Shown here: piece by piece, positions 8,196 through 40,984 of the stretch | Numbering within the stretch: position 1 is the stretch's first letter | How the letters are laid out: every line of letters starts with the position of its first letter | NCBI GenBank assembly: GCA_963169325.1 | Contig: CAUJEY010000270.1 | Location: 1 to 59,544, forward strand | DNA: 59,544 bases | Reading direction: 5' to 3' | Origin: Bacteroidota bacterium | GTDB lineage: Bacteria > Bacteroidota > Bacteroidia > Chitinophagales > Saprospiraceae | Notes under the pieces: generated by a model | What the model was told of the DNA's origin: nothing | Databases searched by the model: none | What the model saw: only the letters and a program-made list of their open reading frames with translations | Made by a program: the position numbers and the translations under genes

Positions 8196-8213
8196 GATGT
8201 TATGGTCCAAAAA

Positions 8214-19676: not shown

Positions 19677-19697
19677 GCCAATTCAACCTGTTAGCCA

Positions 19698-22656: not shown

Positions 22657-24832
22657 ATTCCATTAATTGTTTTGATGATGCTTTTGGAATTTCAATTCTA
22701 AAACATGTTACAAATTCTGTCTCTGGAGGGATTAAGAAAATTTTACCCCCATAAGTTTCAATAATATCCTTTACGATTTTTAAACCCAAGCCAGTGCCTA
22801 CTAATCGCTCATCAGAAGGCGCGTCAAAGCCGGCAGGTAAAGAAGTAGTAAAGAAGGCATTGAAAATTCGATCCTTAATTTCCTCCGCCACGCCATCTCC
22901 ATTGTCTGTAAATTCAATGTATATTTTATCACCTTCTTCCCCAGCAATAATAGCAATTATTCCTTTTGAATTCGCGCGTTGGATCGCTTTTTTTGAATTT
23001 GTATATAAATTATACAAAATTGAAGTCCATTCAGATGGGTGCATCGGCACTGTAAATAAGTCATATCCTCCATAAAATTCAGATTTAATCTCTATCCCCA
23101 TTTTATTTGCATCTCCCTTAATTGCTGACACAAATCTATTTACTATATCAGTAATTCTTATTGGTTGCAATTCTCGACTTACATTTTGAGAAATCGTGGT
23201 ATTAAAATAAGCTGTATAAGCAATAAAATTATTGAACCCTCTTCGAAGTTCTTCTAATAACCCAATTCCTTCAGCATTTTGTTGAAGTGATTGAAGAGCC
23301 GCAATATAACCATTTATTGAAGGAGTATATTGAGTAACTTCATGGGTAAATTCCGCAATAGTCAATCCTAAAGCAGCCAAAACCCTAATCATTCCTAATT
23401 CATCTATTAAAAGCCTTACTTCTTCTCTTAATTCTCTAACTGCATTTTGTGCCTCCTCTTTTCTCTCGAGGGTACCGGAATTAACGAAGGTTTCAATTCG
23501 ATTTAGTAGTTCCTCTACTGTAGTCCGTTCCTGTTTGTTAGATGATTCCTTTGCTTTACCTGCTTTTCTAATCTCAGTAACACCTTCCCTAAGTCTTAAA
23601 CGCGCCGAAAAAAGTGATTCAGACACAAAGTGTTGTAATTCACGAAAAGCATCATTTGACAAAAGCCCTTCGCGGCTGGCAGTTTCTTCAAAGAACTTCC
23701 CTTTAATATCTAACACTTCAACAAATCCGAAGAAATTACGGTTCCTGTAGGGGATATTCGTAGACCCCTTTTCGCCACTATATATTTTGATATCTAAGCC
23801 TAACCAATCGTCATTTGGCTCTCCATATGGTAAAACCCGAAAGCCATTTCGATAAAGCCTTATTCCAGAAGACTCTTCTGACAAAGTCCTTATATTCCTT
23901 AGTTCCAATTTTGAAACCCCTGCATAATATTCTTCTCGTTCATAAATAAAATAATATGCCTTAAAATGTATTCTCTTTAAACTTGGGTAATTGGGTTCAT
24001 TTTTTTTATATTCAATTGGATTATCGAAATCTTCTATGCTTAAATTTTTGCTTGAGACACTAAACGCTCCTTTCCCATCAGAATCAACACTACCCTCAAT
24101 AACCGCAAGGGCTTTATCAAAGATCATCTTCTGTGGGTCAGCAATAACCGTTCTTATTCCATCAGCATTTCGATAAAATCGAACTTGAAAAGTATTGTCT
24201 TTTTGATTGGCTAGTTGAAGAATTGACCCTTCATCTGATAGGTAATCGGGCTGAAACAAATCAGATACATACCGATAAATGCGCTCTATCGATTTGACGG
24301 TCCAAGGGTCACGTAGATTTGAAATTTTCAGTAAAGTACCTTCATCTTTTTGTTTTGCTATTTTCCTTACTGAGTTAGTGATAGTGGTTATATCTTGATC
24401 TATTTGATACTTTTTCCAGTCAATTTCTAATTCGAAGGCGTTGCCTGAATCATTTGTTTGAGTTATAATTGTTAGATGTTCGCCTAACCTTTGAGTTGCA
24501 AACCGTCCAATGCCTTTTCTGCCAGCTCGCTGTCGTTTGTATTTTTCAGATTTTGGATTATGAACTTTGTCCGTTGAAGAAATAGTCATAAAGCCGTCGA
24601 TCAGTTGCTTGTATGTCATACCGCAGCCATCATCCTCAATAAACAGCGTCCCTCCAGTCATATCTGAATCGATGAAAGTAACACTTACTTCTCGGGCGTC
24701 AGCATCATATGCATTTTTAATCAACTCAGAAACCGCAGTTTCAGCACGCCCCACCAGCTCACGGCCCAATCGGTCAATAAGTCCTGCATCAACTCTGAAA
24801 GCAACATTCTCATCAAATTGATTATTATCCAT
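22646..24832 (-). CDS. Double-GHKL ATPase: MORC/Hsp90-like N-terminus plus histidine-kinase C-terminus
   Basis: A 728-residue protein with two separate GHKL ATP-binding folds. The N-terminal one has the N-box ELIKNAYDA (36-44), G1 EDDGCGM (66-72) and G2 GRKGIGRFA, as in MORC/Hsp90/MutL-type ATPases. The C-terminal one has NLYTNSKKAI, FTDNGDGVA, an F-box (IFNAFFTTS) and GTGLGLKIVKDI, as in histidine kinases. Between them a helical region carries FTHEVTQY with His497 directly followed by Glu, like a DHp phospho-acceptor. It has no membrane segment, so it is a cytoplasmic sensor. It overlaps the receiver-like gene. N-terminal GHKL domains of this type often remodel DNA or sense invaders; here that is inference. 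Confidence 0.75.
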   Translation of the reverse strand: MDNNQFDENVAFRVDAGLIDRLGRELVGRAETAVSELIKNAYDADAREVSVTFIDSDMTGGTLFIEDDGCGMTYKQLIDGFMTISSTDKVHNPKSEKYKRQRAGRKGIGRFATQRLGEHLTIITQTNDSGNAFELEIDWKKYQIDQDITTITNSVRKIAKQKDEGTLLKISNLRDPWTVKSIERIYRYVSDLFQPDYLSDEGSILQLANQKDNTFQVRFYRNADGIRTVIADPQKMIFDKALAVIEGSVDSDGKGAFSVSSKNLSIEDFDNPIEYKKNEPNYPSLKRIHFKAYYFIYEREEYYAGVSKLELRNIRTLSEESSGIRLYRNGFRVLPYGEPNDDWLGLDIKIYSGEKGSTNIPYRNRNFFGFVEVLDIKGKFFEETASREGLLSNDAFRELQHFVSESLFSARLRLREGVTEIRKAGKAKESSNKQERTTVEELLNRIETFVNSGTLERKEEAQNAVRELREEVRLLIDELGMIRVLAALGLTIAEFTHEVTQYTPSINGYIAALQSLQQNAEGIGLLEELRRGFNNFIAYTAYFNTTISQNVSRELQPIRITDIVNRFVSAIKGDANKMGIEIKSEFYGGYDLFTVPMHPSEWTSILYNLYTNSKKAIQRANSKGIIAIIAGEEGDKIYIEFTDNGDGVAEEIKDRIFNAFFTTSLPAGFDAPSDERLVGTGLGLKIVKDIIETYGGKIFLIPPETEFVTCFRIEIPKASSKQLMEYGI

Positions 24833-25356: not shown

Positions 25357-27549
25357 TTATCTGAGTTTAGTTATATGTATTTCTAATTCATCCCGGTGTC
25401 CCCTTTGTTCTTCTTCCGAAAGCGAAGGCTCAATAACATATACACTACCCAACTTGTCACCCACTTCCTCGAAAAGCCGGTTTTGCAAGTCAGGTTTATT
25501 GTAAAAATCCTTGCTGATGACAATGCTTTGGCTGTACACCTCGCTGGCTGCCCGGCAAAAGCCGATGGCGTAATTATCTCCAAACTTAGAAGTGGGTGCA
25601 TCCGAAATGAGTGGGTATAACTCTGCTGCCGGACTGCTCCGCTTCGCAGAAATAATCGCCATTATGACTGCCAATTTGATCAGGATGATATTGGAGTCGT
25701 TGATCGAAGAGAGTGGCCGCCCATCCCGGTCGAGGTTTTTTGGCATGTAATTGTCGTTGGGCTGCTTTTCAAGTTTGATCCGACCGCGTACCGATTTATT
25801 TTCTGCGGTCATGTTGAAAAAATGCTTGTTTGCCTCTGACTCTAATTGCTCGATGAGTCGATTAAATACCCTCGCCCTTGTCGATTTAGCGATGTCTCTG
25901 AAATCAGCAAGTACCTGTACTTTCTCTTCCATGAATTTCGGCACTTTACCGGTAGCCAAGCTCCGCAGCTCTTCTTCTGTCTTTTTTACTTCTCCTGCTT
26001 TCTCCTCGATTCTTATTTCTATTCGCTGCAAATCTTTTTCGTATTTGATAATGGCAGTGTGGTGGCTCTGAAATTCGGTGACAACATTAAATGACGATTC
26101 GATAGAAGTAATTTGTGAGGCATTTACAACATCCATGAGATCTTGCTCATTGGCATCTAATTCGGCTTTTATTTCTTTGTATTTGGCTTCCAACTCAAGG
26201 ATTTCACTGAGGGTATTTTTAATTTCATGATCGGCTTGGTTTATGGTTCCTTGTAATTGCAGGCCGTTTTGGTAAAGACTCTTGAACTCATTCGAAAAGT
26301 CATTTTTTGTAACGGACTCTGGTTTCCTCTTTTGTTTGTGGGCCTTAGAGCGATCCAACAACTCTTGAATTTTTAGATACGCCCCCGTACCATTTGGCGC
26401 GTCCCGGTCACAAACAAGACATCGCTCTTTTTCCAGCATTTGCTGAATGAAGATCGGCTCAGGCACATCAACAGGCAAGCGAAAAGACTTCAAAATTTCG
26501 TCCATTGCCTGTTTTTGTGCTTCTTGCTCAGACTCTTTTCTCATCCGAATCCGGGTATATTCGTCATACTTGGCAGCGTAAGTATCTACCAAAAAACCAG
26601 CACCTTTTAGAATCCAATTCCGGGTAAAGAGGCTTTTATTAATGGCTGCCTTCATTTTGTTTTGGCGCTCATCAGTTTCTTTTAGGCGTGCCTTTAAATC
26701 AGCACTTTTTGTAGAGAGTTCTTTAATCCGCTGGGCGTCTTCCAATTTACCTAATAGATCATCCTTCTTTTCCCTTGCCTTGGTGAGGTCATTGGCTGCC
26801 AAAATCCGTTCTGTCTCCAACCGCTCAATTTCGCTTCTAAGTCGTTCAATCTTGGAAACTAATTCGTCGTTTCGGTTGGCATTTGAGGATACACGGCGAC
26901 TCTCTCGCTGAAACTCTTTTTCGGCCGTTTCATATGCTTTCCGGGATAATTCCTCGTAAAAATCAAATTCGCTTATATCTGAAAGAACATTGATGGCTCG
27001 GGTCAGCGTATCATTCTTTTTAAAGTCAATGAGACTATCCACCTGTTCGCCCTGAAACCACATATATGGTTTTACGTCATCGGGGAGAATTCGTCGCCGC
27101 AAGGATTCAATATCTGCCTGTGATACTGGACGAGAGTTCAGGTACTTTTCTTTGAAAAATGCCGACTGTGCGCTCTCCGACGGCTCTCGCCAAATGCCGG
27201 ATTCCGTTTTCGTAATGGTGTAAGATCGAGTTAAAGTGTATTCGTCGCCTTTTTGTGGGTTAAAGACTACAATTTCAATCTCTGTTTTGACTGAACCGCC
27301 CGGCTCACATTGGGATTTTGCCTTGTCGGAAACCAAATTGCCGCGGATATCTTTATGCCCGGTTGGTTGAAACTCACGTGTCATCGAATCAAAAACCCGG
27401 TCGTACAACACCCAATAAAAACCGTCGTATAATTTTGATTTCCCGGCGCCATTATCGCCGATCACCAAATTCAAGCCTTCTTTGAACTCGAATTTGACCT
27501 CCCCGAAATAACATTGGAAATTCGTTAGTGTAATGGATTTCAAAATCAT
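25357..27549 (-). CDS. DndD-like SMC/Rad50-type ATPase
   Basis: A 730-residue protein with an N-terminal P-loop (GDNGAGKS, residues 31-38), a long coiled-coil middle interrupted by a zinc-hook-like CLVCDRDAP motif, and a C-terminal ABC half with SDAPTSKF near the end in place of a typical Walker B. This is the architecture of DndD, the ATPase that supports DNA phosphorothioation, and of related Rad50-like defence proteins. I use ATG 27549 (MILKSITLTNFQCYFG); the extra upstream start codon is a TTG. It follows the small 70-residue protein gene and precedes the 158-residue gene. Confidence 0.8.
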   Translation of the reverse strand: MILKSITLTNFQCYFGEVKFEFKEGLNLVIGDNGAGKSKLYDGFYWVLYDRVFDSMTREFQPTGHKDIRGNLVSDKAKSQCEPGGSVKTEIEIVVFNPQKGDEYTLTRSYTITKTESGIWREPSESAQSAFFKEKYLNSRPVSQADIESLRRRILPDDVKPYMWFQGEQVDSLIDFKKNDTLTRAINVLSDISEFDFYEELSRKAYETAEKEFQRESRRVSSNANRNDELVSKIERLRSEIERLETERILAANDLTKAREKKDDLLGKLEDAQRIKELSTKSADLKARLKETDERQNKMKAAINKSLFTRNWILKGAGFLVDTYAAKYDEYTRIRMRKESEQEAQKQAMDEILKSFRLPVDVPEPIFIQQMLEKERCLVCDRDAPNGTGAYLKIQELLDRSKAHKQKRKPESVTKNDFSNEFKSLYQNGLQLQGTINQADHEIKNTLSEILELEAKYKEIKAELDANEQDLMDVVNASQITSIESSFNVVTEFQSHHTAIIKYEKDLQRIEIRIEEKAGEVKKTEEELRSLATGKVPKFMEEKVQVLADFRDIAKSTRARVFNRLIEQLESEANKHFFNMTAENKSVRGRIKLEKQPNDNYMPKNLDRDGRPLSSINDSNIILIKLAVIMAIISAKRSSPAAELYPLISDAPTSKFGDNYAIGFCRAASEVYSQSIVISKDFYNKPDLQNRLFEEVGDKLGSVYVIEPSLSEEEQRGHRDELEIHITKLR

Positions 27550-27573
27550 ACACAATGGTGGTTAGTGGCTATT

Positions 27574-27786
27574 CTATTTGTTTAGGGTTTGATTCAGTTT
27601 CCGTACCATAGTATCTATGGAGTCTCCTTTGTCTTTCCCCAAAATGGCGGCTTTCAAGGTATTGATTAATTTTGACTCTGAATGGTCGATGAATTTCAAT
27701 TTGGTCACCTCCTCCTTGGTCATATAGCCCTTTTGTTCGACCAAGTCGTCCATCAGGAATTCGCGTAGTAATTCTTCTTTGGTCAT
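27574..27786 (-). CDS. Small helical protein (70 aa) between helicase and DndD-like genes
   Basis: A 70-residue charged helical protein, MTKEELLREFLMDDLVEQKG to QTLNK, starting in an ATGA overlap with the helicase stop at 27783. The overlap decides the start: the longer frame to 27840 reads helicase codons. The protein could be a subunit tether or inhibitor, but no motif is recognised. Coupling to the helicase means it is made in similar amounts. Confidence 0.6.
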   Translation of the reverse strand: MTKEELLREFLMDDLVEQKGYMTKEEVTKLKFIDHSESKLINTLKAAILGKDKGDSIDTMVRKLNQTLNK

Positions 27787-30017
27787 ACAGAAATGAGATT
27801 TTGATGGATAGTGTGCAGGTTTAGATCGTAATGTTGGCAAATTTCTTCCAAAATTTCCAAAGTATGGTAGCGATTAATGGACATGAATGCAAAATAGGCA
27901 ACACGTTCAAGTTCCCGCTGCACTAACTTTTGTTCCATTTTAAAGGTATCTTCATCTAAATCCGTACCATAAAAATCCGGAACGACCACCAAGTCGTGAA
28001 TCACAGCCAAATGCTTATCTGGATGTTTACGCAACACCCGGCCCCGTCGCTGAATAAATTGTCGTGGGTTTCCCGTGCTTGAACAAAAAATAGCCAACTC
28101 CGCACGGGGAATGTCAATACCCTCATCCAGGCATTTCATCGAGGCCAACACATGAATCTCACCCTGTTGGAACTGTTTCATAATCAAATCCCGGTCTTTG
28201 GTAGCACCGGTAAATTGATTGACAATAATTTTTGGATGAATGCCTCCAATAGCCTGTGTGTATTGGTTTATCAGGCGTAAATCTTCTTCATCTTCGGTCC
28301 AAGATTCCTGATCCTGCACCGAAAAACCTTCCGGGACATAAACGAATGTGAATTTTAGATTGCCGTGCTCCTCAAAATGTTGCCGCAGAATTTCCTGGGT
28401 TATATCGAGTTTGTTCGCGGCTTTCTGTACAATACGTTTTCGTGCCAGCAGGAGTTTTTCCACTGCATCCGATTCTTTGAACCTACCCGCTTTGAAGTCA
28501 AAAAACTTCATCAGTTTTTTAGAAATGCGCACATACTCTTCCAACTCAGAAGGTGTCAACGTAACCAAATGGGGGAAATATTTGTATTTACAGAGCACAC
28601 CTTCTTCAATTGCTCGTTCCATTGGAAATGAATACGTGTAGGGCTCTGTGTCACGAAAGAAGGTCTCCATTGCAGCCGTGCCGGAAGGATCGTAAATACG
28701 CTTAGGTGTAGCTGATAAACCTATCCGTTTTTGCAAGTGCACGGAAGGTAATACCTCCAAGACTTTCGCCGAGGCGATATTGTGTCCTTCGTCAGCAATG
28801 AAAATGGTATCAGTTGGTAATTTTCGGAAATGATGCTGGAATTTTTCCCGGTAAAAGGTGGCGTAGGTACAAATAACCACGAAAGCCTTTGCGCCTCCGA
28901 ATTTAATAAAGGTGAGTACACCAGCCAAATCATGTTCCCAATCTGTTTTTGAGGAAACCTTGATGATGTTTGAGAAATTGAACGACCGGGCTTCCTTTTC
29001 CCATTGCTCGACCAATGAAATGGTTGGAACCAAAACAACCATTTGGTAGGGCTTGTCTTGATTTTGCTGGTACTCCGCTAGGACACAGTTGAGCGCTGTG
29101 ATAGTTTTTCCGGTACCCGTCGCCATTGCAAAAATACCATGCCGATCATTTTCGACCCAGCGTTGATATGCCAGCGTTTGATAATCTCGCGGACCGTTTG
29201 GATGGGGGAATTTTGGCTCTTTTAAATAAGCTTCCACATGCTCTTGGGCCCGGTCCAATACCTTTTGGTAATAGGGTTTGTAAGATTGTTGGGCCTTTTT
29301 TTTGATCAACTGTTCCTCTTGCACGAGGAGTTCATTTAAGTTGCGATCACCAAACTCATTTTGAATGACCACCTCGATGGCTTCAAACGGAATGTGTTCA
29401 ACAAAGTCGGCTTTCTGGTTGAATATTTGATCAAAGTAATTATGGTACTCTCGGATGGCCTCCTGATCACTGCGCGTTTTCCAGGAACATTTGACGAACA
29501 ATTCTTCTAAGTTTTCGAGTAAGCCGCTTGCTGTAAAATTACAAGAGGACTGGAATTTGATTTCATTTTGACCGTCATAAAAGACGCCGGATTTATAATG
29601 CGAGATGCCGCGGTCACCTTTGGGTCGAACGGCTACAATTTCAATCCGTTTAGATGCAATTAGCCACGCCAAACATTCGAAAAAGTGGCGGCCATAAGCG
29701 TCAAGATTATTTTTAAGTCCGATGAAGTCGTTTAATGTAAATTGATAGTCTCGCTCGTGTGTATTGAGTCCGGTTAAAACAGCTTCCTTGTCCTGTTGTG
29801 ACAGGATGTGATTAATGACCATGCGAACCCGTCCATCATTACTTAGGAATTTAGCAAAACCAATCGACAGCACACTGATGGCCGAGGAACTGAAATAGCC
29901 CAAAAGCAAGTCTAAGCGCTTGCTTTCCAACAAGGCATCCATATAGAATGCAACTGGTTCGTAGTCGCTGCCACTGCGATACTCCCCTGAGGGTGGAAGG
30001 GCAAAGTCGTTTAACAT
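27783..30017 (-). CDS. PLD-like nuclease fused to a DEAD/DEAH-box helicase
   Basis: A 744-residue protein. Residues about 20-200 are a phospholipase-D-type nuclease domain: HYKSGVFYDG (HxKxG-like) and SCNFTASGLLEN fit one PLD half, typical of restriction nucleases. From about 275 comes an SF2 helicase: FAMATGTGKTITA (Walker A), a DEGHN motif II, GLSATPKR (motif III) and FIQRRGRVLRKHPD (motif VI). This architecture matches a family annotated as phosphorothioation-system restriction enzymes and also type III/ISP-like effectors. It would translocate on DNA and cut invaders. It heads the minus-strand half of the island, overlapping the small 70-residue gene. Confidence 0.8.
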   Translation of the reverse strand: MLNDFALPPSGEYRSGSDYEPVAFYMDALLESKRLDLLLGYFSSSAISVLSIGFAKFLSNDGRVRMVINHILSQQDKEAVLTGLNTHERDYQFTLNDFIGLKNNLDAYGRHFFECLAWLIASKRIEIVAVRPKGDRGISHYKSGVFYDGQNEIKFQSSCNFTASGLLENLEELFVKCSWKTRSDQEAIREYHNYFDQIFNQKADFVEHIPFEAIEVVIQNEFGDRNLNELLVQEEQLIKKKAQQSYKPYYQKVLDRAQEHVEAYLKEPKFPHPNGPRDYQTLAYQRWVENDRHGIFAMATGTGKTITALNCVLAEYQQNQDKPYQMVVLVPTISLVEQWEKEARSFNFSNIIKVSSKTDWEHDLAGVLTFIKFGGAKAFVVICTYATFYREKFQHHFRKLPTDTIFIADEGHNIASAKVLEVLPSVHLQKRIGLSATPKRIYDPSGTAAMETFFRDTEPYTYSFPMERAIEEGVLCKYKYFPHLVTLTPSELEEYVRISKKLMKFFDFKAGRFKESDAVEKLLLARKRIVQKAANKLDITQEILRQHFEEHGNLKFTFVYVPEGFSVQDQESWTEDEEDLRLINQYTQAIGGIHPKIIVNQFTGATKDRDLIMKQFQQGEIHVLASMKCLDEGIDIPRAELAIFCSSTGNPRQFIQRRGRVLRKHPDKHLAVIHDLVVVPDFYGTDLDEDTFKMEQKLVQRELERVAYFAFMSINRYHTLEILEEICQHYDLNLHTIHQNLISV

Positions 30018-30049: not shown

Positions 30050-30553
30050 TTATTCACCTTCAATTTCCAAATGCCCAAACTGTGGTAATTCCACTGTTTC
30101 AAAATACTGATTTACAATTTTATCCAGATAGGAGTCATTTACGATATCGTCCTCCAGATAATATTCTGTCTCCGGGTGTAGTTCAATAATTTTCTCATTG
30201 GAAACTTTTAGCCTAGATCGGATCGCCTTAAAAAACTTCACCTCTGAATACTCCACTTGTTCATCGGCCTTGATCGTTTGAATGGCAAAGTCAACCAGGG
30301 TTAGTTCTTCCTTTTCTGACAAATTGGCATTATGCAACAGTTCGAAATAACGTTTAATGAAGTCTTTGCTACCAATATTTATTCTGGCAACCAAAGAATT
30401 AATCTCTTCTTCAAAGTTAAATTTGGCGAATACAGGTGACGTAGCACATAGCGATCTGATTAAATCAACCTCCCGGTTATCAATATGGCCGTCGCAGGCC
30501 ATACAACAGAAGGCAGTTTTGAGCAGCAGTTTATCGTAAGAAATGGTATCCAT
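30050..30553 (-). CDS. TerB-like acidic protein of the Hsp70 operon
   Basis: A 167-residue protein with a TerB/DUF-like helical signature: FCCMACDGHIDNREVDLIRSL, the Asp-Gly-x-Ile-Asp pattern seen in tellurite-resistance TerB domains, which bind metal ions. The C-terminal third is acidic (YYLEDDIVNDSYLDK). I start at ATG 30553 (MDTISYDKLL), 4 bp after the kinase-AAA gene stop, because the longer frame overlaps that gene. It is the last gene of the five-gene operon. TerB domains often accompany chaperone/ATPase stress modules; the exact role here is unknown. Confidence 0.65.
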   Translation of the reverse strand: MDTISYDKLLLKTAFCCMACDGHIDNREVDLIRSLCATSPVFAKFNFEEEINSLVARINIGSKDFIKRYFELLHNANLSEKEELTLVDFAIQTIKADEQVEYSEVKFFKAIRSRLKVSNEKIIELHPETEYYLEDDIVNDSYLDKIVNQYFETVELPQFGHLEIEGE

Positions 30554-30557
30554 AATA

Positions 30558-32375
30558 TTAATTTTTGTTGAAACCAATGTGTCTTCTTTCTGGGGGATTC
30601 TGGGCGTCATCTTCTCCCTCCATTTTGGCGCGGAGCGCCTGGTATTTCTGAATTTCAGAAAGCGGGACTGAGGGTTTGTTCCCCTTAATTACCTCTTCCA
30701 GTATTTTCATGGATATGCGAGCCTTCTCCTTCAACGCTCTTCGTGCAGCATCATTCACGATGAGTTCAATATCGGCAGAAACATAATGTTCTGTTTGATT
30801 TGCAAGCAAATCATAGTCAATACCAAAATCAAGCGGCCGGCTTTTTAGATAAAGTTCAAACATGGCTTTTCGTGCCTCAAAATCAGGTGGTGGTAAATAC
30901 ACTTTTTTATCCAAGCGCCCTGCCCGAAGTATAGCGGTGTCAATTTTTTCCGGACGATTGGTAGCACCGATAATAAAGATACCACGTTCCGCACAATTGG
31001 TCATTTGGGCTAAGAATTCGTTCACTTCGGATGCATAGCTATGGTTCAAGTTACCTTCCCGGTTGGGTACCAATGCATCTAACTCATCAATAAACATGAT
31101 GGTTGGAGCATTCTTTTTAGCCTCTTCGAATAGTTTGGCAATCTTTTCTTGCGAACCGTGTACGTAGATACTTGCAAGATCAGAGGGTTTGAGATCGAGG
31201 AAATTAAAGCCAACCTCTTCGGCAAGTCTCTTGGCAAAATAAGTTTTCCCACACCCGGGAGGACCGTATAGCAGCATTCCATTGGGAATGGTGACACCAT
31301 ATTCTGCATATTGATCCGGATGAAGCAGGGCATCTATGACCTCAGTTTGTAAAAGGTTTTTCAAATCTTTCATACCGGCAATGGCCTCAAACCCTTTGCC
31401 TGTAGCCCGTTCAGTTCGTTTCAGATTGGGAGCAGCTGGGGTGTTTTCTTGTGAAGTCTCGCGAATGAGAATGTCATGGATGGGCGTTTCTCCTTTGAGT
31501 ACCTCCAGGAATTCGGCAGCAGTCTTAAAGCGCTGGTCGATATCGGTTTGCAGGGCTTTATTGACAATTTTCAGAATCGTATCTTCAAATCCGATGAATT
31601 GGTGTTTTATGTTTGGAAACGATGGCGGTTTTTCGCGTTCAGCGGCCACGATATCCTCCGGTTTTTCCCGGCTTGCTTTAAAAGCAGGTACTTCTTTGTA
31701 CCAGGGAGGCATGCCAAACAACAAATGATACATCAAGGCCCCAGTGGAAAATAGGTCTGACTGTGGAGCATATAAGTTACTTAAGCATTCGGGTGCCAGA
31801 TAGTAAGGATCAAGGCCTTGGCGGTTGAAGGATTTGGATGATTGATAAAACGAGCGGGCATGACCAAAATCAATAATAATCGGCACCGGTACATCGCCAG
31901 AGAGATTGAGCATGATGTTTTGGGGTGTGATCTCGTTGTGTATGATACAATCGCCATGCTGATGCAAATATTTTAACCCTTCCAGGATACCCGAAATATA
32001 CTGTTTGACGTCATAAGCGGTTGAAATCCGCTCACGCCCGATCCGTTCGGCAAGGGTTTCTCCGGATATGAAATGCAACACCAAGTACAGATACTTAACT
32101 TGATTGACAATAATTTCTCCACTGTCTTTATATCCAACGATATTGGGGTGCTTTATCTTTTTTAGAAACTCGATTTCCAACAAATTTCCATCCGCATCAA
32201 AAGATGATCGGTGGGTTTTTGACGTGCTGAATAATTTTAGAAAATAGATTTTACCGCCACCATCTTTTACACGATAGGTTTCTGCATTCGCGCCTTGTTT
32301 GATAAAAAGTAACACCTTGTACTTGTTATCAATCAGGTCGTTTTTTAATAACACCGCATTGCGTTGTTTTTCCAT
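30558..32375 (-). CDS. Protein kinase domain fused to an AAA+ ATPase
   Basis: A 605-residue protein. Residues about 18-300 are a Ser/Thr kinase-like domain: Gly-rich loop GANAETYRV, Lys47 (YFLKLF), a catalytic-loop position IIHNEITPQN (His146-Asn147-Glu148 where HRD is usual) and DFGHARS (Asp169). Residues about 345-560 are an AAA+ module: Walker A GPPGCGKT (371-378), Walker B IMFIDELD, sensor GATNRPEKID and RAGRLDKKV. Unlike FtsH it has no membrane segment or protease. The HNE for HRD replacement makes kinase activity doubtful; the domain may bind substrates or nucleotide. It lies 8 bp after the Hsp70 gene. Confidence 0.82.
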   Translation of the reverse strand: MEKQRNAVLLKNDLIDNKYKVLLFIKQGANAETYRVKDGGGKIYFLKLFSTSKTHRSSFDADGNLLEIEFLKKIKHPNIVGYKDSGEIIVNQVKYLYLVLHFISGETLAERIGRERISTAYDVKQYISGILEGLKYLHQHGDCIIHNEITPQNIMLNLSGDVPVPIIIDFGHARSFYQSSKSFNRQGLDPYYLAPECLSNLYAPQSDLFSTGALMYHLLFGMPPWYKEVPAFKASREKPEDIVAAEREKPPSFPNIKHQFIGFEDTILKIVNKALQTDIDQRFKTAAEFLEVLKGETPIHDILIRETSQENTPAAPNLKRTERATGKGFEAIAGMKDLKNLLQTEVIDALLHPDQYAEYGVTIPNGMLLYGPPGCGKTYFAKRLAEEVGFNFLDLKPSDLASIYVHGSQEKIAKLFEEAKKNAPTIMFIDELDALVPNREGNLNHSYASEVNEFLAQMTNCAERGIFIIGATNRPEKIDTAILRAGRLDKKVYLPPPDFEARKAMFELYLKSRPLDFGIDYDLLANQTEHYVSADIELIVNDAARRALKEKARISMKILEEVIKGNKPSVPLSEIQKYQALRAKMEGEDDAQNPPERRHIGFNKN

Positions 32376-32383
32376 ATTAAAAT

Positions 32384-34939
32384 CTATCGTGTCAATTTTC
32401 CTAAAAATTCTTCTGCCTCTCCGTGATCCATCTGGCCCACCAACTCTACCAATACAGGCCTGACCTGACCAGTTTTGCCAGATTGCACCAACTGCAAGCC
32501 ATGATTACAGAGGGTTCGTGCCTTAACTCTGTCTTTCCAGTGGAATGAACTGAAATTTTCGCTGATCTGCTGTAGCACTGCAATATCCATCCCGCCCCCG
32601 GTTACCAAATTGCGCAATTCAAAGTCAAACTGGCTAATAGCCGTGGAGAGCTCTTTAGCCGCTTTAATATCTTTGGTTTTGATAACCTGTTCTGTCTTTT
32701 GCCGGAATTCCTGTAGATGCAGGTTGATCTTGTCCATATTTAAGTCGCTACCGTCGCTATTGGCCTTAATTTTAGAAAGCAAATCTTCCAACTCATAGAA
32801 GGCGTCTTTTAACTCCTGTTCCGCTATAGGCCACTCGGTTTGTCGCTCCAGACCGTCGAGTAACCGGAGGTCTTTACGCAGATTTTCTAATATCCGGAAC
32901 TTGCCATCGGCGCTCCCTTTTTCATTATTCAATTGGGCTTCCAATTCGTCAAGTGTTTTTAATATCGGTGCTGTCTGCGCTTCAGGATGGCTTTCTTTTA
33001 CCCGGTTAGCTGTTTTTTTTGCTTTCCTGAGTTCACCTTTCAGCCAGTCCTCATCCACCTGCGATTTTTGAACAAGTTTTACAGGTATTTCTTCCGTGTA
33101 GTTCAGATATGGGAAAAAAGCGGAAAAAGTCATTTGTTCCGAGCGGTCCACTCTTACAGTGATTTCTACTTCACTGCCTGCCGGCAAAAGTGCAGGAAGG
33201 CTTTCCCCAGTGATAATAACGTCGTTTACATGTTCATTGTAGATTGCTCGGGTGCCATCTGCACCATGTTCACCCTGAAAAATCGGAATTACAATGAAGT
33301 CATCAATCATCCCCGGCCGAATCGGTCGCTGTGTTTTCAAACCTGTAGTGACGCCGGTTGCCGGTAAGGTTTGGTTTTTCTCCAGACCTTTAATATGTAA
33401 AAAAACGTCTTCTTCCAATATCCGGTCTTTGATTTCAATGCCAATATGATAGGGCAATACGGCCTGACCAGGATTTATACCCTGTAAAATGTTAAAGGAG
33501 GAAGGCTCACAATCCAATTTGTTCCCCTGATCATCGTACAGCACCACCACAAAAGTATTGGATGCTCCCGTATTCAGTTGTACATCTATAAGCGTGGCTT
33601 TTTCACCCACGGTTTTTTTACCACTTGACCAAGCTTTATCGCCGCGAGTGATTTCTGCAAATATCTTTTCAGGTATTCTTCCAGTCGTTTTTTCCCGAAG
33701 AATTTTCAGGCTGACCATCTCGTCTATTTCGACCGTGGTGGGTTCGTATTTGATGTCCAGTTGAATCTTTGTTTTGTCCCGGCTTTCTTCCACAATTGCC
33801 TCGGAAATGTCGATCGTCGATGCAAATAAAGCGGCGCCTTTGGCCACCGATGTCATGGGGTCCGTACTTGTATTGACTTTATCCGTGATTTGCTCTTTGA
33901 GCATCCGGCGAAGAATTGGCGAATAAGTAGGCCCGCCAACCAGCAACAAAGTGGTAAGTTGTGCGCCCTTCAGGTTGTTTCTCTTTAACAGATGCTTGCA
34001 GGTATCGATGGCCTTCTGGAAAATTGGAGAGACTACCACCTCCATTGATGCCTGATTTACATTGATATCTAAAGACGGTTCATCTCCGTTTTCGTCTTCA
34101 AAGGGCAGGTCGCCAAGATCGGTGAGGATATTGTGGGCATCCTTAAATGACATTTGAATTTTACATTCCTCTGCGTAGGATTTTACTGCGCCGCGCAAGA
34201 TTTCCCGCTTATCCATATCTTCTAAGATGGAATCAATGGCGTAATTTTCTTTCAGATACGGGATGATGATTTGATCCACAATCGCCTCGTCCAAATTTTT
34301 ACCACCCAGCCAGTTGTCGCCCTCCGTATCAACCACTTTCATAATACCTTCTTCCACTTTGATGAGCGCAGCGTCGAACGTGCCACCGCCGAAGTCAAAT
34401 ACCAACCAAATACCGTCCTTATTAGTCGAATCCAGGCCGTACGCCATAGAGGCCGCGATCGGTTCCTGCAGCAATTCGATATGCTGGAAACCGGCCAGTT
34501 GCCCCGCCCGGACGGTCGCCTCTTTTTGTACCATCGTGAACTTGGCCGGTACCGTGATGACGATGGATTTGATACTGTCATCCGTAATGAATGATTTTAA
34601 CTTCATCAAAATCTCAGCTGAAAGCTGCTCGGAGGAGTAATCAAAGTTCATGTTGGAACTATGATACCGGGTATTTGTACCCATAGTTCGTTTAAATTCA
34701 ATAAAAGAGTTTGAGTCTTCTTTTTTCCAATTCTTAAGAGACCTTTTTCTATCATTATTCAAAGCGTTACTTGCTGTTATTCCGACCAGTATTTCTTGTT
34801 TTTTGTTAAAATTTACACACGATGGAATTGTGTCCATTCCAAGATCAGATTTTTTAACGATCAGAATACCATTCTCAATTCGAACTATTGCAGAGTTGGT
34901 AGTACCTAAGTCGATGCCGTAGTCAATTTTGGTGCGCAT
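32384..34939 (-). CDS. Hsp70 (DnaK) family protein with long C-terminal extension
   Basis: An 851-residue Hsp70. The nucleotide-binding domain is clear: DLGTTNSA (10-17), VFDFGGGTFD (about 180-189) and LLLVGGPTYSPILRRML near residue 335. The substrate-binding part follows but is divergent, and about 250 C-terminal residues form a coiled-coil-rich extension (LKGELRKAKKTANRVKES and later helices) not found in the housekeeping DnaK, which is about 640 residues. This is therefore an accessory, operon-specific Hsp70, expected to act with the GrpE-like and J-like proteins encoded upstream. The gene is 32 bp from the GrpE-like gene stop. Confidence 0.88.
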   Translation of the reverse strand: MRTKIDYGIDLGTTNSAIVRIENGILIVKKSDLGMDTIPSCVNFNKKQEILVGITASNALNNDRKRSLKNWKKEDSNSFIEFKRTMGTNTRYHSSNMNFDYSSEQLSAEILMKLKSFITDDSIKSIVITVPAKFTMVQKEATVRAGQLAGFQHIELLQEPIAASMAYGLDSTNKDGIWLVFDFGGGTFDAALIKVEEGIMKVVDTEGDNWLGGKNLDEAIVDQIIIPYLKENYAIDSILEDMDKREILRGAVKSYAEECKIQMSFKDAHNILTDLGDLPFEDENGDEPSLDINVNQASMEVVVSPIFQKAIDTCKHLLKRNNLKGAQLTTLLLVGGPTYSPILRRMLKEQITDKVNTSTDPMTSVAKGAALFASTIDISEAIVEESRDKTKIQLDIKYEPTTVEIDEMVSLKILREKTTGRIPEKIFAEITRGDKAWSSGKKTVGEKATLIDVQLNTGASNTFVVVLYDDQGNKLDCEPSSFNILQGINPGQAVLPYHIGIEIKDRILEEDVFLHIKGLEKNQTLPATGVTTGLKTQRPIRPGMIDDFIVIPIFQGEHGADGTRAIYNEHVNDVIITGESLPALLPAGSEVEITVRVDRSEQMTFSAFFPYLNYTEEIPVKLVQKSQVDEDWLKGELRKAKKTANRVKESHPEAQTAPILKTLDELEAQLNNEKGSADGKFRILENLRKDLRLLDGLERQTEWPIAEQELKDAFYELEDLLSKIKANSDGSDLNMDKINLHLQEFRQKTEQVIKTKDIKAAKELSTAISQFDFELRNLVTGGGMDIAVLQQISENFSSFHWKDRVKARTLCNHGLQLVQSGKTGQVRPVLVELVGQMDHGEAEEFLGKLTR

Positions 34940-34971
34940 ATTTTAGAATTATTTTTTGATATTAAAGGTTG

Positions 34972-35850
34972 TTATATTTGACCAACTGATACTTCAACTT
35001 GGGCTGCTTGTATCATAATACCTTTAAAATTAACTTGTGGTTTTATAATTCTGGTAATTATTTCCTCGTCACTTTTTAAGTTATCATCTGGAATTGAGTT
35101 GACTACGATTAATTTCATACCAGGGTTAAACGGTTTATATAGTAAATCTGGAATATCGTACCCATTTGCAGCGAAATTTTCCTCGATTCGTTTAACGGAA
35201 GCGGCCAGTTGCTTTAGGCCCTTAGTTTCCGGGGCCATATTCGCAAGGTTTTTATTGATGCGTGTGATCTCGTCAGCCACTTTCAGAGCAAGTGAATGAT
35301 CTGGTTCATTCCCGACCGTTGTTGTTAATGCCGGTTTTTCAGCCTGTGCAATTTTCAACTGTGCTTCAATGATTTCGGAGAGTTTGGTGTCAAGTTTTAC
35401 AGATTCTTCTTCAAGTACCTTCTTCGTAGCTGCTATTTGATCTACTACGCTCGTTCGATCGGATTTGATACGTTTACCAAGCGCCACATAGGCCAAAGCA
35501 GATAATAACGCTACAGCCAGGAATGCAATGATCCAATAAAGGCTCTTTTTGCTTAATGAAGAATCCAAATCGGCAATTTTCTGGCTACTTGTTTGGTCGG
35601 CCAACGTCAGTTCCTTTTTAGTTTGCTCGATGGTTTTATCGGTGCTTTGCAAATACGTGTCAAGGGAGTCAATACTTGCTTGTGCACTTATTGTCTGTGC
35701 ATCAAATGCCTTCCTGAGTTTTGCGGTTTCAGCCCGTAGGAGCGCGACCTGCTGTTTTAAGGAGACGATTTCCTCTTCAACATTAGTATCAGTCTGTGCC
35801 ATCAAAGGAAATATCCCGACTAATAATAATACGGATAAAATGTATTTCAT
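34972..35850 (-). CDS. Membrane-anchored coiled-coil protein with GrpE-like C-terminus
   Basis: A 292-residue protein with a signal peptide (KYILSVLLLVGIFPLMAQ), a periplasmic coiled coil (about 25-95), one transmembrane helix (YWIIAFLAVALLSALAYVAL, about 106-125) and a cytoplasmic coiled coil, then a C-terminal segment (GYDIPDLLYKPFNPGMKLIV, then GIMIQAAQVEVSVG) that fits the beta domain of the nucleotide exchange factor GrpE, including the final V-x-x-A-x-V pattern. I infer a membrane-bound exchange factor for the Hsp70 encoded next to it. The start overlaps the J-like gene stop by ATGA. Similarity to GrpE is judged by eye and is the weak point. Confidence 0.65.
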   Translation of the reverse strand: MKYILSVLLLVGIFPLMAQTDTNVEEEIVSLKQQVALLRAETAKLRKAFDAQTISAQASIDSLDTYLQSTDKTIEQTKKELTLADQTSSQKIADLDSSLSKKSLYWIIAFLAVALLSALAYVALGKRIKSDRTSVVDQIAATKKVLEEESVKLDTKLSEIIEAQLKIAQAEKPALTTTVGNEPDHSLALKVADEITRINKNLANMAPETKGLKQLAASVKRIEENFAANGYDIPDLLYKPFNPGMKLIVVNSIPDDNLKSDEEIITRIIKPQVNFKGIMIQAAQVEVSVGQI

Positions 35851-37577
35851 CTTTTAATCATTTTGATAATTTGATTGAGGATAAAGCGGATGCAAGTGTT
35901 CGTAAGCCTTTTATTTTTAAGTATTTCTACTAATTTTGGAGAGTATTGGTAATAGGTTTTTATAACCCATAAACCCAATTTGAATTTTGACAATATCTCG
36001 TCTCTGAACTGACGAAGTACCACAACCTGAGGATGGTCATAGTCGCCGTAGGCCATCGTGGCGATATAACAACCACCGCCGCCACCCGAGCCACCGGATC
36101 TGCCAGTGCCGACATTTACACTTGACAACTGATTACGCAGACTGGAAAGGCCTTGTTTGTTTGTATTGAAATGGCTTCTAAAATCACTTCGAAGGTCCAT
36201 GTTGCCAATCAACAAGGTCACATCCCAAGCTTCATCAACTTTTTGCTTTAACAAGACTATGGCCATTAATTTACCGGCTTGGTCATATGTGTTACCTAAT
36301 CTATTTTGAATGGCATTTATCTCGGACACCACCATTCCTTGGGCATCCGCTGCAATCCTCGTGCTTAGTCCAATATACAACTCATCACTACTCCCTAATG
36401 TGGATTTGACATTCTGGACATGAAGCCTTGATTTGTTTAAGAATTCTTTAGCATTGGTGATAGTTGGCGATTTACTTTCATATTCATCAATCAAATCTTT
36501 AATTCTTTCCAAATCCTGAAGAATCCTTTGTTGTCTTTCCCGATTTGGTTTATCATCAATCCATTCTTGTAGATTATCCATATTTTCCTGACAGCGCTGC
36601 TTGGCCACATTGCCTATGGCCACGACTTTTGCTTTTCGCACACAATCCATTGTCTCATTCCCAGGATCGGTATTACTTTCCCGATAATACTTAAAATAAT
36701 CAATTCCACACTGCAATACTTCCTCGGCCACTTTATCAGAAAGGGTGGTAAACCTGATATCGGTTGGCCCCAAAATAGATTTGAGTTGGCTGAGGGAGTC
36801 TATTACATTCAAATACAATTGTTTACCTGTACCGGCTGCGTTTGAGGGGCTCGTCTTTCGTTTACGCTTAGCCTCTTCAATTTGCTTTTCAATTTGTTCT
36901 ATGGGCTGATGTGCAAAAGTTTTTAGATATTCTGATTTTGCAGAAAAAGAAGCTTTGCCTAATATCGTTAAAAACAGTTGCGCGTTCACACCATTTTTCT
37001 CGGCTTCCGCATATACTTTGCTCAGAAAGTTTTTTTGCAATTCCTCCTTTGATATTTTGAAAGTCTCATCTGTAGCGACCCTTACAAAATCAGAATAGTT
37101 ATCGCTTTCCAGAAATTTCAGCTTCATCAATATACCTTCTTCCAGTAAGCCTGTGTCGACACCGCCATTACGGAAGGCATTATTTAAATGCAACGTGGAT
37201 AAATTTTGAAAGGCAGAGTAGCTGCGAGAGGTTACTTCGCCGGACAACATTAATTTGCGCCAAACAGCGGCGGCTGTTTGCATGTCGAGTGCCTGCAATG
37301 CATCAAATGCAGGTTCATCTGCAATGCCATTATTTATAAACCAGAAAAGTGCCGCGTTCATTCGGTCTTGATTCAGGTTTATCCTGGCGGGCACTTCGCT
37401 TATGGCATCGGCAGTTCGGGTTAGATCGCCTAAAACCGGGAAACTGAAATCCTCATCAGGTTCCTGCTCCACTTCAAGAAACATTTTCAGTTTTTTCGTG
37501 CGACTCAGTTGTTCTCTCGCGCTAGCGCCAATCAGCAAACCAATTATGCGGTATGGGTTGTTTTTTATGGCAAGCAT
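35847..37577 (-). CDS. J-like/TPR-like protein with CFI-box C-terminus
   Basis: A 576-residue protein. The first ~45 residues (NPYRIIGLLIGASAREQLSR) resemble the start of a DnaJ J domain, but no HPD tripeptide follows, so it is J-like at best. A long helical region follows, then a Gly-rich linker (GRSGGSGGGGG) and the C-terminal CFI-box (CYIATMAYGDYDHPQVVVLR, then RDEIL and a hydrophobic tail), a domain found at the end of many bacterial proteins of unknown role. Together with the neighbours this reads as the co-chaperone of the operon. It is the first gene; no clear promoter box is seen in the 60 bp upstream. Confidence 0.65.
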   Translation of the reverse strand: MLAIKNNPYRIIGLLIGASAREQLSRTKKLKMFLEVEQEPDEDFSFPVLGDLTRTADAISEVPARINLNQDRMNAALFWFINNGIADEPAFDALQALDMQTAAAVWRKLMLSGEVTSRSYSAFQNLSTLHLNNAFRNGGVDTGLLEEGILMKLKFLESDNYSDFVRVATDETFKISKEELQKNFLSKVYAEAEKNGVNAQLFLTILGKASFSAKSEYLKTFAHQPIEQIEKQIEEAKRKRKTSPSNAAGTGKQLYLNVIDSLSQLKSILGPTDIRFTTLSDKVAEEVLQCGIDYFKYYRESNTDPGNETMDCVRKAKVVAIGNVAKQRCQENMDNLQEWIDDKPNRERQQRILQDLERIKDLIDEYESKSPTITNAKEFLNKSRLHVQNVKSTLGSSDELYIGLSTRIAADAQGMVVSEINAIQNRLGNTYDQAGKLMAIVLLKQKVDEAWDVTLLIGNMDLRSDFRSHFNTNKQGLSSLRNQLSSVNVGTGRSGGSGGGGGCYIATMAYGDYDHPQVVVLRQFRDEILSKFKLGLWVIKTYYQYSPKLVEILKNKRLTNTCIRFILNQIIKMIKR

Positions 37578-38372: not shown

Positions 38373-38642
38373 ATGAAGTCCCGCACCCCAACCCGAAAAC
38401 CGCAGAAGCGCCCGCCTACCGTCCCGCCCACCTACCGCGACCTAAAATCCCTCCGCCGCCAAACCGGCCTCTACGACCCCTTCGATTTCAGGGACTACCT
38501 CCAAACCCGGTTGCGCAGGCTAAAACCGGAAACAGTAAAAGCCATCGCTACATACCACCGCATGAAACGCCCGGTGGCCGATCCGGAAATGGTTGCCCTG
38601 TGGCTGGCCGAAACCATTTTTGAAAAAACCGCCTGGCCATGA
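38373..38642 (+). CDS. Small basic protein (89 aa), first gene of the methylase operon
   Basis: An 89-residue protein beginning MKSRTPTRKPQKRPPTVPPT, a basic proline-rich tail, followed by a helical part (LYDPFDFRDYLQTRLRRLKP). The charge suggests nucleic-acid contact, but no domain is recognised. I chose ATG 38373 because the shared promoter ends there; the in-frame ATG at 38337 would lie upstream of the promoter box. The stop overlaps the methylase start by ATGA (38639-38642), so the two are coupled. Confidence 0.6.
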   Translation: MKSRTPTRKPQKRPPTVPPTYRDLKSLRRQTGLYDPFDFRDYLQTRLRRLKPETVKAIATYHRMKRPVADPEMVALWLAETIFEKTAWP

Positions 38643-40984
38643 CCCCCATTCCTTTCCTGCCCGGCAAAAAAACGGTCATCTACCGGCCCAATGGCGAGCA
38701 GCACCAGGGGCAGTTTGCCATCGTGGACCTGGCCCACATCAAAGCCAGCCACGACGAGCAGACTTTTGCCGATACGCCGGGCTACCCCCGTAACCCCGCA
38801 GGAGGCAACGTCAACGACCGCAACTACGCCGGCGACGTGGGCGCCCAGGCCCTGGTGGACGAATACGCCCGCAATCTGGAGTCGGGCCTGCTCGTCAGCA
38901 CCGGCCGCACCCCGGAGGGCACACATATTATAAATAAGGAGGGTTTTGTGGTCAGCGGGAACAACCGAACCAGGTCTGCCAAACTGGCCCGGACGAAAGA
39001 CCAGGCCCGCTACCAGGCTTACCGGGATTTCCTGCAAGAAGAACTTTCGGCCTTCGGCATTCCGGAACAGGATTTCGCCGACCGCAGCGTTTTTGCCGGC
39101 CGGGATGGACAGATTGAAGCGCCGTTCCTGGTCCGCATCGACTACGACATTCCGGCGCTCACCACCGAGGAACTGGCCAAATACAACCAGGCCAGCACCA
39201 AATCCGAGCGGCCGGTGGACAAGACCGTCAAACTTTCGAACATCCTGCGCGAAAACACGGCCTGCGGCAAACAAATCCCCAAACTGTTCGAGGACGACGA
39301 CATCATGAGCGAGTTTTACACGGACGCCAGCGCGCAGAAACAACTGCTCGACATGTTGCTCTCCTGCAACCTGCTCACCCGCCAGCAGGTACCGGAATAC
39401 TACACCGACGGACATTTCACCGAATCCGGAAAATATTTCGTGGAGATGACCCTGGCTGCCATCGTGTTGCGCCCGCCCGCTTTGCAGGCCGCCGAAACCG
39501 ATGGCGTGGCCAGCCTGCGCAAGGCCATCGTCAATGCCCTGCCTGTCCTCATGGATAATATTGCCCTGCCGGCGCCCGGCGCCCGGCTGGGCGATGCGAT
39601 CAACGCCGCCGTAGTGTTCCAGCAAAAAATGAAGGCGTCCAAACTGTCCTTCGCGGATTTCATCGGCCAGCAAAACCTGCTGAGCACCGGGCTGTACTCC
39701 CGCGAAATGTTGGTGCTGAACCGCCTGATGAATGCCGGCCAGCGGGCGTTCAAATCCGCCATCGCCCGCTACAACGAAACCCTGAAGGCCAACCAGGGCG
39801 AGTCCCTGTTCGGCGAGGAGCACAAAGTAAGTCCGGCAGAAGCCTTCGAGCGGATCATTGTCGAAGCTCTGGATGCCGGGGAGCAAAAGGTCATCAGGCA
39901 GTACCTCAAACAGGTGGAAAGCCCAGGCGCCGCTAAGGAAACAGACCCGGCCGAAGGTATCGAAGCCTATACCAGTGGCGTTCAACAGGCTTTCCGGGAA
40001 GGCAAAAAACTGACCGTCACCGGACTGCGCAAAATCGCCGCTGCCGCCGGCATAGACACCGGCAACGAAAAATACCTCTGGGAACTAACCGAACTCTGCT
40101 GGGTAAACTGGTACCGGAAACTGGTGAACGCCCATATTTTCGAGGAGGACAAAACCGCCGCCTTCGATGCCGTGGTGGACTTCTACCGGCGCGTTCAACC
40201 CACCTACACCGGTCTCGACAGCCACAAAAAGGTGTTCCAGCAATACAGCACCAGCGCGCCGATTGCCTGGCTGGCCGGGTGGTTCACTTACGACCGCGAC
40301 ACAAAAAGCGTGTTCGAGCCGTCTGCCGGAAACGGCCTGCTGACCATCTTCTACCCGGAAGAAATGACCGTGGTCAACGAGATCGACCCGGTGCGGTTTG
40401 CCCACCTAAAAACCCAGCCTTTCCGGGCGATACACCGACTGGATGCATCCGTGCCATTTCCAGAGCGGTTCCACCGCGCCTTCGATGCGGTGCTCACCAA
40501 TCCGCCGTTCGGCCGCTTAGCCGAGGTCAACCGCGATTTCGGGTACCCGTTCAAGGCACTTGATCACGTCATGGTCGCCCACGCGCTGGCGTGCATGCGC
40601 GATACCGGCCGCGCCGCCATCATCCTCGGCGGCCACACGGAAATCAACGCCGGCGGACAAATTGCTGGCCACCGGCAGTTTTTCAACTGGCTGTACCGGC
40701 ATTACCGGGTAGTGGCCCTGCTGAACATCGACGCGGCCAAACTGTACCACAAACAAGGCACCGACTTCCCGCTGCGCATGATCTTGGTCGCCGGGCGCAA
40801 GGCGGAACCCTTCGGCGCTGCGCCCACGATCAAAGAATACCCGCAATTAACCCAGGTGACCGACTCCTTCGAAACCTTGTTCGACTTGGTGCGAGCCGCC
40901 AGGGAATCTGCCAACCTGCGCGAAGAAACCTTGACCCAAAAACTGGAACGGGAACTCCAAAAAATAAAAATCGAATCCGTATGA
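38639..40984 (+). CDS. ParB-like plus N6-adenine DNA methyltransferase protein
   Basis: A 781-residue protein. The N-terminal half (about 1-230, NEQGFVVSGNN-type region with RNTRSAKLAR nearby) fits the ParB-like domain (ddrB-ParB) seen in phage and ICE polyproteins. The C-terminal half is an adenine-specific methyltransferase: motif I FEPSAGNG (about 559-566), motif IV NPPFG (621-625) and a later LNIDAAKLYH stretch. Family members modify adenine in DNA, sometimes to avoid host restriction, as in phage P1 DarB. The helicase partner encoded at 46584 would complete a DarB-like pair. GC content is clearly higher than in the defence island. Confidence 0.8.
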   Translation: MTPIPFLPGKKTVIYRPNGEQHQGQFAIVDLAHIKASHDEQTFADTPGYPRNPAGGNVNDRNYAGDVGAQALVDEYARNLESGLLVSTGRTPEGTHIINKEGFVVSGNNRTRSAKLARTKDQARYQAYRDFLQEELSAFGIPEQDFADRSVFAGRDGQIEAPFLVRIDYDIPALTTEELAKYNQASTKSERPVDKTVKLSNILRENTACGKQIPKLFEDDDIMSEFYTDASAQKQLLDMLLSCNLLTRQQVPEYYTDGHFTESGKYFVEMTLAAIVLRPPALQAAETDGVASLRKAIVNALPVLMDNIALPAPGARLGDAINAAVVFQQKMKASKLSFADFIGQQNLLSTGLYSREMLVLNRLMNAGQRAFKSAIARYNETLKANQGESLFGEEHKVSPAEAFERIIVEALDAGEQKVIRQYLKQVESPGAAKETDPAEGIEAYTSGVQQAFREGKKLTVTGLRKIAAAAGIDTGNEKYLWELTELCWVNWYRKLVNAHIFEEDKTAAFDAVVDFYRRVQPTYTGLDSHKKVFQQYSTSAPIAWLAGWFTYDRDTKSVFEPSAGNGLLTIFYPEEMTVVNEIDPVRFAHLKTQPFRAIHRLDASVPFPERFHRAFDAVLTNPPFGRLAEVNRDFGYPFKALDHVMVAHALACMRDTGRAAIILGGHTEINAGGQIAGHRQFFNWLYRHYRVVALLNIDAAKLYHKQGTDFPLRMILVAGRKAEPFGAAPTIKEYPQLTQVTDSFETLFDLVRAARESANLREETLTQKLERELQKIKIESV

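Follow-up and report, generated by a model that had tools for sequence, protein, structure and literature searches.

The 59,544-nucleotide stretch of contig CAUJEY010000270.1 (assembly GCA_963169325.1, forward strand), which comes from a member of the Saprospiraceae and is hereafter called the window, carries five genes that encode an Hsp70-family protein with putative co-chaperones and an AAA+ protein. Five intact open reading frames (ORFs) occupy positions 37577 to 30050 of the minus strand in head-to-tail order (Table 1), exactly where the original prediction had placed five tightly spaced genes on one strand. Read 5' to 3', their junctions are a 4-bp overlap followed by gaps of 32, 8, and 4 bp, with the TerB-like gene counted from 30553. 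This is the likely start of that gene, because homologues in an alignment begin at M20 of its longest ORF.

The genome also has housekeeping copies of this machinery elsewhere: a single GrpE match, distinct from the window protein, DnaJ matches, and, besides the window Hsp70, two strong Hsp70-family matches (one of them a standard DnaK) plus one weak match. The five-gene set is therefore extra, and it differs from the housekeeping system as predicted.

Table 1. Features of the window, with strand and supporting detail
Feature	Position	Strand	Detail
J-like protein with CFI box, 576 aa	37577-35847	minus	residues ~6-80 degenerate J-domain-like, no HPD; long helical body; CFI box 503-571
Membrane GrpE-like coiled-coil protein, 292 aa	35850-34972	minus	hydrophobic signal-like N terminus, coiled coil, transmembrane segment ~107-125, second coiled coil, GrpE-type tail ~185-290
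Hsp70-family protein, 851 aa	34939-32384	minus	ATPase domain 8-374, then divergent region; tentatively an insert and a substrate-domain-like stretch ~485-640
Probable pseudokinase-AAA+ fusion, 605 aa	32375-30558	minus	kinase fold with HNE for HRD; Walker A, Walker B, following ATN/GR motifs
TerB-like protein	30553-30050 (167 aa); longest ORF 30610-30050 (186 aa)	minus	conserved start
SspB-SspC-SspD modification genes	15584-20798	plus	PADLOC: SspB E 7e-106, SspC E 0, SspD E 5e-92
PbeA/PbeC-type genes	25357-30017	minus	PADLOC: PbeA E 0, PbeC E 8e-33

Properties of the five proteins

Judged from an alignment of relatives, the Hsp70-family protein keeps its ATPase motifs. DLGTTNS was found in all 25 aligned rows, and DFGGGTFD in 21, with DLGGGTFD in 3 and an unread letter in one (loci of relatives are designated by L numbers; L022, L031, and L033 were excluded from this alignment). 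The Pfam HSP70 match (E 1.9e-65) is limited to residues 8 to 374, the actin-like ATPase domain. Past approximately residue 376, no Pfam or NCBIfam model has its main match, a profile of residues 376 to 851 returned no Hsp70 chain from the PDB at E ≤ 1, and the region aligned weakly to the organism's own DnaK (best E 0.035). This weak alignment is the basis for the substrate-domain-like stretch after an insert, which is a tentative assignment.

The membrane protein had been predicted to end in a GrpE-like domain, and structural modeling agreed. A template-free AlphaFold2 model built from 23 sequences had a mean predicted local distance difference test (pLDDT) score of 73.6, with block means of 84 to 89 over residues 191 to 290. 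In a Foldseek search of the PDB, all seven chains at E ≤ 0.001 were GrpE by title, and ranks 1 to 11 were all GrpE (best E 6.4e-6), in line with the GrpE fold of a helical stalk and a beta-wing. A single strong transmembrane (TM) segment lies past residue 100 in 19/19 full-length sequences, the window protein included (four partial sequences were left out of this count). All 19 are richer in lysine and arginine after this segment than before it, which is consistent with a cytosolic GrpE head. Sequences from L018 and L022, which have unread letters or broken frames, were excluded from the membrane-protein, TerB, and folding alignments.

The J-like protein likewise appears to be a degenerate partner, as had been proposed. 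The HPD motif is missing from the first 90 residues of all 21 J-like proteins, and the N-terminal pattern, N-P-Y-R-hydrophobic-hydrophobic-G ... R ... A ... R ... FWF, is J-domain-like by eye. A profile of 26 J-like N termini found 24 PDB sequences at E ≤ 10, and J-domain proteins took the first ten places (best E 0.017), including the top match mKIAA0962, which we take to be a J-domain protein. An hhalign comparison of the J-like and J-domain profiles gave an E of 0.0029 over 26 columns. Pfam DnaJ was not among the matches listed (25 of 38 families) for the 21 J-like members.

At its other end, the window J-like protein matches CFI_box_CTERM (E 2.3e-22), an NCBI-named C-terminal domain on which no paper was found in a full-text search of open-licence PMC. 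In the window protein and 20 relatives, the J-like C terminus contains a TM segment in 11/21 proteins, a CFI box, as judged by alignment, in 9/21, neither in 1/21, and both in none. This pattern hints that the CFI box may anchor the protein in the membrane in place of a TM helix, and, as the rows are related, the exclusivity should not be read as a statistic. A separate gene encodes a CFI-box-like stretch in L014 and L015. The J-like C termini of L013, L014, L015, L030, and L032 share a domain beyond the TM segment; by eye, the same domain occurs in an inserted lipoprotein-like gene of L021 (12549-13223) and of L034, and in L096 (2116-5001). It is possible that this shared domain is a periplasmic sensor.

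Both parts of the predicted kinase-AAA+ fusion were matched by Pfam (Pkinase, E 4.5e-38; AAA, E 7.4e-37), and the fusion stands. The kinase itself is probably catalytically dead, since the aspartate of the HRD motif is lost in 28/29 aligned rows (HNE in the window), HRD being retained in L009 alone; two of these rows, L007_0 and L020_10, represent one genome. Walker A is GPPGCGKT in 28/29 rows (SPPGCGKT in one), and the Walker B Asp-Glu pair is present in 28/29 (IEE in one). The AAA+ part scored best with FtsH, CDC48, and proteasome-ATPase models, and among Pfam and NCBIfam models no protease domain matched the protein.

The window TerB match (E 0.0016) scored 19.5 bits, under the curated cutoff of 24.4. 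Across the family, Pfam TerB was found at E ≤ 0.01 in 20 of the 21 aligned TerB proteins (best E 1.1e-6); this alignment also omitted L013, where the frame is broken. In L018 and L022, the kinase-AAA+ (STK) and TerB frames read into one another; these cases were left uncounted because of unread letters and broken frames. We considered and dropped tellurite resistance as a function: TerB-type domains occur elsewhere, for example in DjlA, and a TerB domain alone is no evidence of tellurite resistance.

Conservation and mobility of the set

A scan of genome contigs with the window Hsp70, covering close relatives, gave 22 loci. Using the window proteins as tblastn queries, we found the kinase-AAA+ gene in 22/22, the J-like gene in 20/22, the membrane gene in 20/22, and the TerB gene in 18/22. 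The two loci with neither a J-like nor a membrane gene (L031 and L033) begin at a contig end. The four loci with no TerB gene are L025 and L028, which end at a contig edge, and L026 and L029, where none is seen. Gene order is conserved as J-like protein, membrane protein, Hsp70, kinase-AAA+, and TerB. Other genes are occasionally inserted; one example, in L018, L029, and L033, encodes a second Hsp70 of ~690 aa. All five genes also occur, in order, on plasmid pHALHY02 of Haliscomenobacter hydrossis. Among seven stretches from wider Hsp70 relatives (L188 to L194), searched with tblastn, L188 and L189 carry the full set. That these are unrelated genes clustered by chance is thus exceedingly improbable; the mixed annotation would fit such a cluster, and the recurrence of one order across many Bacteroidota loci and on a plasmid refutes it. 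The expectation that the genes would be conserved as a set was borne out among close relatives.

Some relatives have additional genes around the set. In L013, L014 (15674-15976), L016, L017, L018, L020, L023, and L188, the gene after TerB encodes a small hydrophobic protein of ~100 aa; in the window, PbeA comes directly after TerB. By eye, a gene for a secreted SH3-type protein precedes the J-like gene, either immediately or with one gene between them, in L017 (1199-1738), L019, L020, L024, L025, and L032, with a weak model match in L017 only. Lipoprotein-like genes, also recognized by eye, go with the set in some relatives.

The module is sporadic and moves between Bacteroidota genomes. Among 42 genomes of the same genus, a close copy was present only in the organism's own (0/41 others), and a second genome had a distant copy. 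The C-terminal part of the Hsp70 was matched in 8 of 395 genomes of the phylum, its own included. The Hsp70 tree places Flavobacterium copies on several separate branches, and copies from Chryseobacterium and Empedobacter are near-identical; several forks of this tree are open and its long branches are unsure. The entries G142/L007 and G451/L020 share coordinates and were taken as one genome. From viral contigs, 80 loci were kept, and two of them (L096 and L097) were compared with the set. A diverged set, with an Hsp70 of 41% identity, lies on an IMG/VR contig classed as viral, where a gene ~4 kb away has a portal-family match (E 5e-5), and this contig may be a prophage. In L097, a 129-aa soluble protein occupies the GrpE position, and its end is GrpE-like by eye.

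Defense genes around the set

The window set stands next to a defense island, as first proposed. By their PADLOC matches (Table 1), the Ssp and Pbe genes are a phosphorothioation-based defense island; PbeABCD with phosphorothioation is described as an antiviral system in the published account cited here (PMC6459918). The GC content is 0.423 in the Hsp70 set and 0.416 in the Ssp/Pbe stretch, and 0.532 and 0.547 on the two flanking sides, as expected for an acquired island. Elsewhere, BrxL (brxL) and PglZ (pglZ) of BREX lie directly downstream of the plasmid copy, Gabija adjoins L027, a type I methylase adjoins L032, a PD-T4-1/PDC-S02-like gene is near L024, and SspB- and SspC-type genes are near L013. 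Integrase and HipA-type matches were also found in the flanks.

We compared the flanks of 11 loci (101 proteins) with 11 control stretches from the same contigs (137 proteins). At E ≤ 1e-10, 337 PADLOC families were matched in the flanks and 10 in the controls, a contrast that exaggerates the defense excess, as one protein can match many models and these are not gene counts. For this test, 12 of the 22 loci were chosen and 11 were used (L021 was left out), and ORFs that were shorter than 100 aa, contained unread letters, or were open at contig ends were omitted. These omissions removed the SspC-type gene of L013 from the flank proteins counted.

It is conceivable, though we think it rather unlikely, that the set is a helper module which folds or assembles adjacent large multisubunit defense complexes, such as Ssp/Pbe here and BREX on the plasmid. 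The PbeA gene starts merely 32 bp past TerB on the same strand, and several neighbors are large ATPase systems. However, the neighbor varies by locus, being Ssp/Pbe, BREX, Gabija, or type I restriction-modification (RM).

Three further genes deserve mention. In the cluster on the Pbe side of the window, between genes of no assigned family, 22646-24832 (minus strand) encodes a 728-aa protein with two matches to GHKL (Hsp90/histidine-kinase type) ATPases. At 38639-40984 (plus strand), in the high-GC part beside the island, a 781-aa ORF shows, by eye, motifs like those of ParB and N6-methylases. Upstream of the J-like gene in L190 and co-directional with it, a 1000-aa gene (7531-10533, minus strand) has a PDC-S60 match and, by eye, DUF4062, NACHT, and FGE-sulfatase-like parts.

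A putative protein-remodeling machine at the membrane

A GrpE-like protein tied to the membrane by a TM segment, together with a J-like protein so tied in half of the relatives, makes a membrane-based remodeling machine likely. That the genes encode a dedicated membrane-tethered Hsp70 machine, of whatever purpose, we consider highly probable. The J-like domain without HPD and the kinase without its HRD aspartate look like adaptor domains retained for binding, beside two motors whose ATP motifs are intact. Gene order, folds, the keeping and loss of motifs, patchy distribution, and neighborhood are observed; from these we infer a single complex, the direction of its cycle, its client, and an anti-phage effect. 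The cycle would begin with the J-like protein, which may be anchored at the inner membrane through a C-terminal TM segment or, in the window, perhaps through the CFI box; it would deliver or sense a client, which the dedicated Hsp70 would bind using ATP. The GrpE-like head, on its own TM helix, would reset the Hsp70 at the membrane, and the AAA+ ring, with the pseudokinase and TerB modules as its docking parts, would then pull apart the client or a partner. In a conflict role, proteins of the invader might be remodeled or blocked at the membrane, or their proteotoxic effect sensed.

Parts of this arrangement have precedents. In the HSP70 theme of the GAP1-N2 GTPase-centered conflict systems, as outlined in the relevant passages of Kaur et al. 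2020 (PMC7159879), HSP70 and GrpE occur with a DnaJ domain fused to an FNIII-repeat protein, some systems have a second HSP70 that lacks the peptide-binding part, and membrane association and a conflict role are predicted. The combination of HSP70, a GrpE or GrpE-like protein, and a J or J-like partner at the membrane is shared, as is, in L018, L029, and L033, a second Hsp70. In contrast, the GrpE-like protein here is TM-anchored, and the kinase-AAA+ fusion and TerB are added; the hosts given in those passages are actinobacteria or firmicutes, whereas the hosts named here are nearly all Bacteroidota. No GAP1/TRAFAC GTPase stood out among the Pfam matches listed for the neighbors, and no search was aimed at GAP1 or its GTPases. 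CnuD of CoCoNuT, from the portion of the literature cited (PMC11090510), is also an Hsp70-like protein in a predicted defense setting, but it goes with McrBC-type systems and has degenerate Walker A-like motifs, while the ATPase motifs of the window Hsp70 are intact.

Other precedents lie in stress physiology. Escherichia coli DjlA, as treated in the cited part of PMC11709261, is a TM-anchored J protein with a TerB-like domain that directs DnaK and GrpE at the inner membrane, the same elements as are combined here. The present set differs in that the J-like and TerB proteins come from separate genes, the J-like domain lacks HPD, GrpE is membrane anchored, the Hsp70 is dedicated, and an AAA+ protein is included. 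HscA and HscC are likewise sporadic, specialized Hsp70s with private J proteins; the section of PMC8215388 that covers them suggests that they do not interact with GrpE, whereas the window set includes a GrpE-like protein of its own, and its Hsp70 is much longer. These cases raise the alternative of a general envelope or cytoplasmic stress chaperone, like HscC with DjlB/DjlC or DjlA with DnaK, which guards membrane clients against stress and is simply carried along in genomic islands. HscC has been proposed to serve membrane proteins (PMC8215388, same section), Rcs activation by DjlA requires DnaK and GrpE (PMC11709261, same part), and the SH3-type and lipoprotein-like genes beside the set in some relatives would suit an envelope role. 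The absence of a close copy from the 41 other genomes of the genus and the adjacency to genes of BREX, Gabija, type I RM, and Ssp/Pbe systems argue the other way, and we regard this alternative as unlikely.

Because the module travels between species and is often found among defense genes, a conflict role appears most likely. Our reading is therefore of a mobile, self-contained, membrane-tethered Hsp70/AAA+ protein-remodeling machine that acts in conflict with phages or other mobile elements, and our confidence in this as a whole is evenly balanced. The step from machine to immunity is drawn from neighborhood and mobility. A role for a chaperone in phage sensing has been described for bNACHT25 in the work cited (PMC12169576). 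A more specific version is tentative and less likely than not: a new system against phages or mobile elements in which a private Hsp70 cycle at the inner membrane, with both co-chaperones anchored there, feeds the proteins of invaders to an AAA+ unfoldase docked by the pseudokinase. In this version neither a nuclease nor a toxin would take part, and the CFI box would be an anchor that can replace a TM helix. Of the original interpretation, the extra membrane-linked Hsp70 set and the defense neighborhood found support, and the kinase has given way to a probable pseudokinase.

Several observations weigh against the conflict reading or its parts. The relation of the membrane protein to GrpE is supported by the structural model only: Pfam GrpE did not match it, hhalign to GrpE was weak (probability 3, E 0.015), a PDB profile search returned no GrpE chain at E ≤ 10, and these searches do not establish the relation. 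The TM-scores were also low (0.22 to 0.30 by query for ranks 1 to 11), indicating a fold match rather than a close superposition, because the long helices differ in placement. For the whole J-like model, the best Foldseek match had an E of 0.0082, none reaching 0.001, and the matches listed (50 of 547) included no J-domain; block pLDDT over residues 1 to 80 was only 48 to 78. Remoter relatives lose members, with no TerB match in L190, no membrane GrpE match in L191 (the other four are present), Hsp70 and TerB with no kinase-AAA+ found in L192, Hsp70 and the J-like protein in L193, and Hsp70 alone in L194; several of these contigs are short, and tblastn may overlook diverged genes. The plasmid collection contained one record with a match and the phage record collection none. 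Named defense cases cover 4 of the 11 loci tested, MADS-type matches occurred in controls, and 6 of 10 large flank proteins scanned singly had no match at 1e-10. Further upstream on the plasmid, a SIR2-family gene matched no PADLOC model at 0.001. Within the set, no PADLOC family matched the Hsp70, J-like, or TerB proteins at E ≤ 0.01, and no nuclease, pore, or other effector domain was recognized in the five proteins with Pfam, PADLOC, and NCBIfam models.

A keyword search of the main text of a GrpE review (PMC12987570) found none of the terms transmembrane, membrane-anchored, or membrane-bound. If our reading is true, the set would provide a membrane-anchored GrpE-type factor. The exclusivity at the J-like C terminus also gives a testable idea of what the CFI box does. 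Here, one transferable cassette joins an Hsp70 cycle to an AAA+ motor, which, if the conflict role holds, would add protein remodeling to the repertoire of defense islands.

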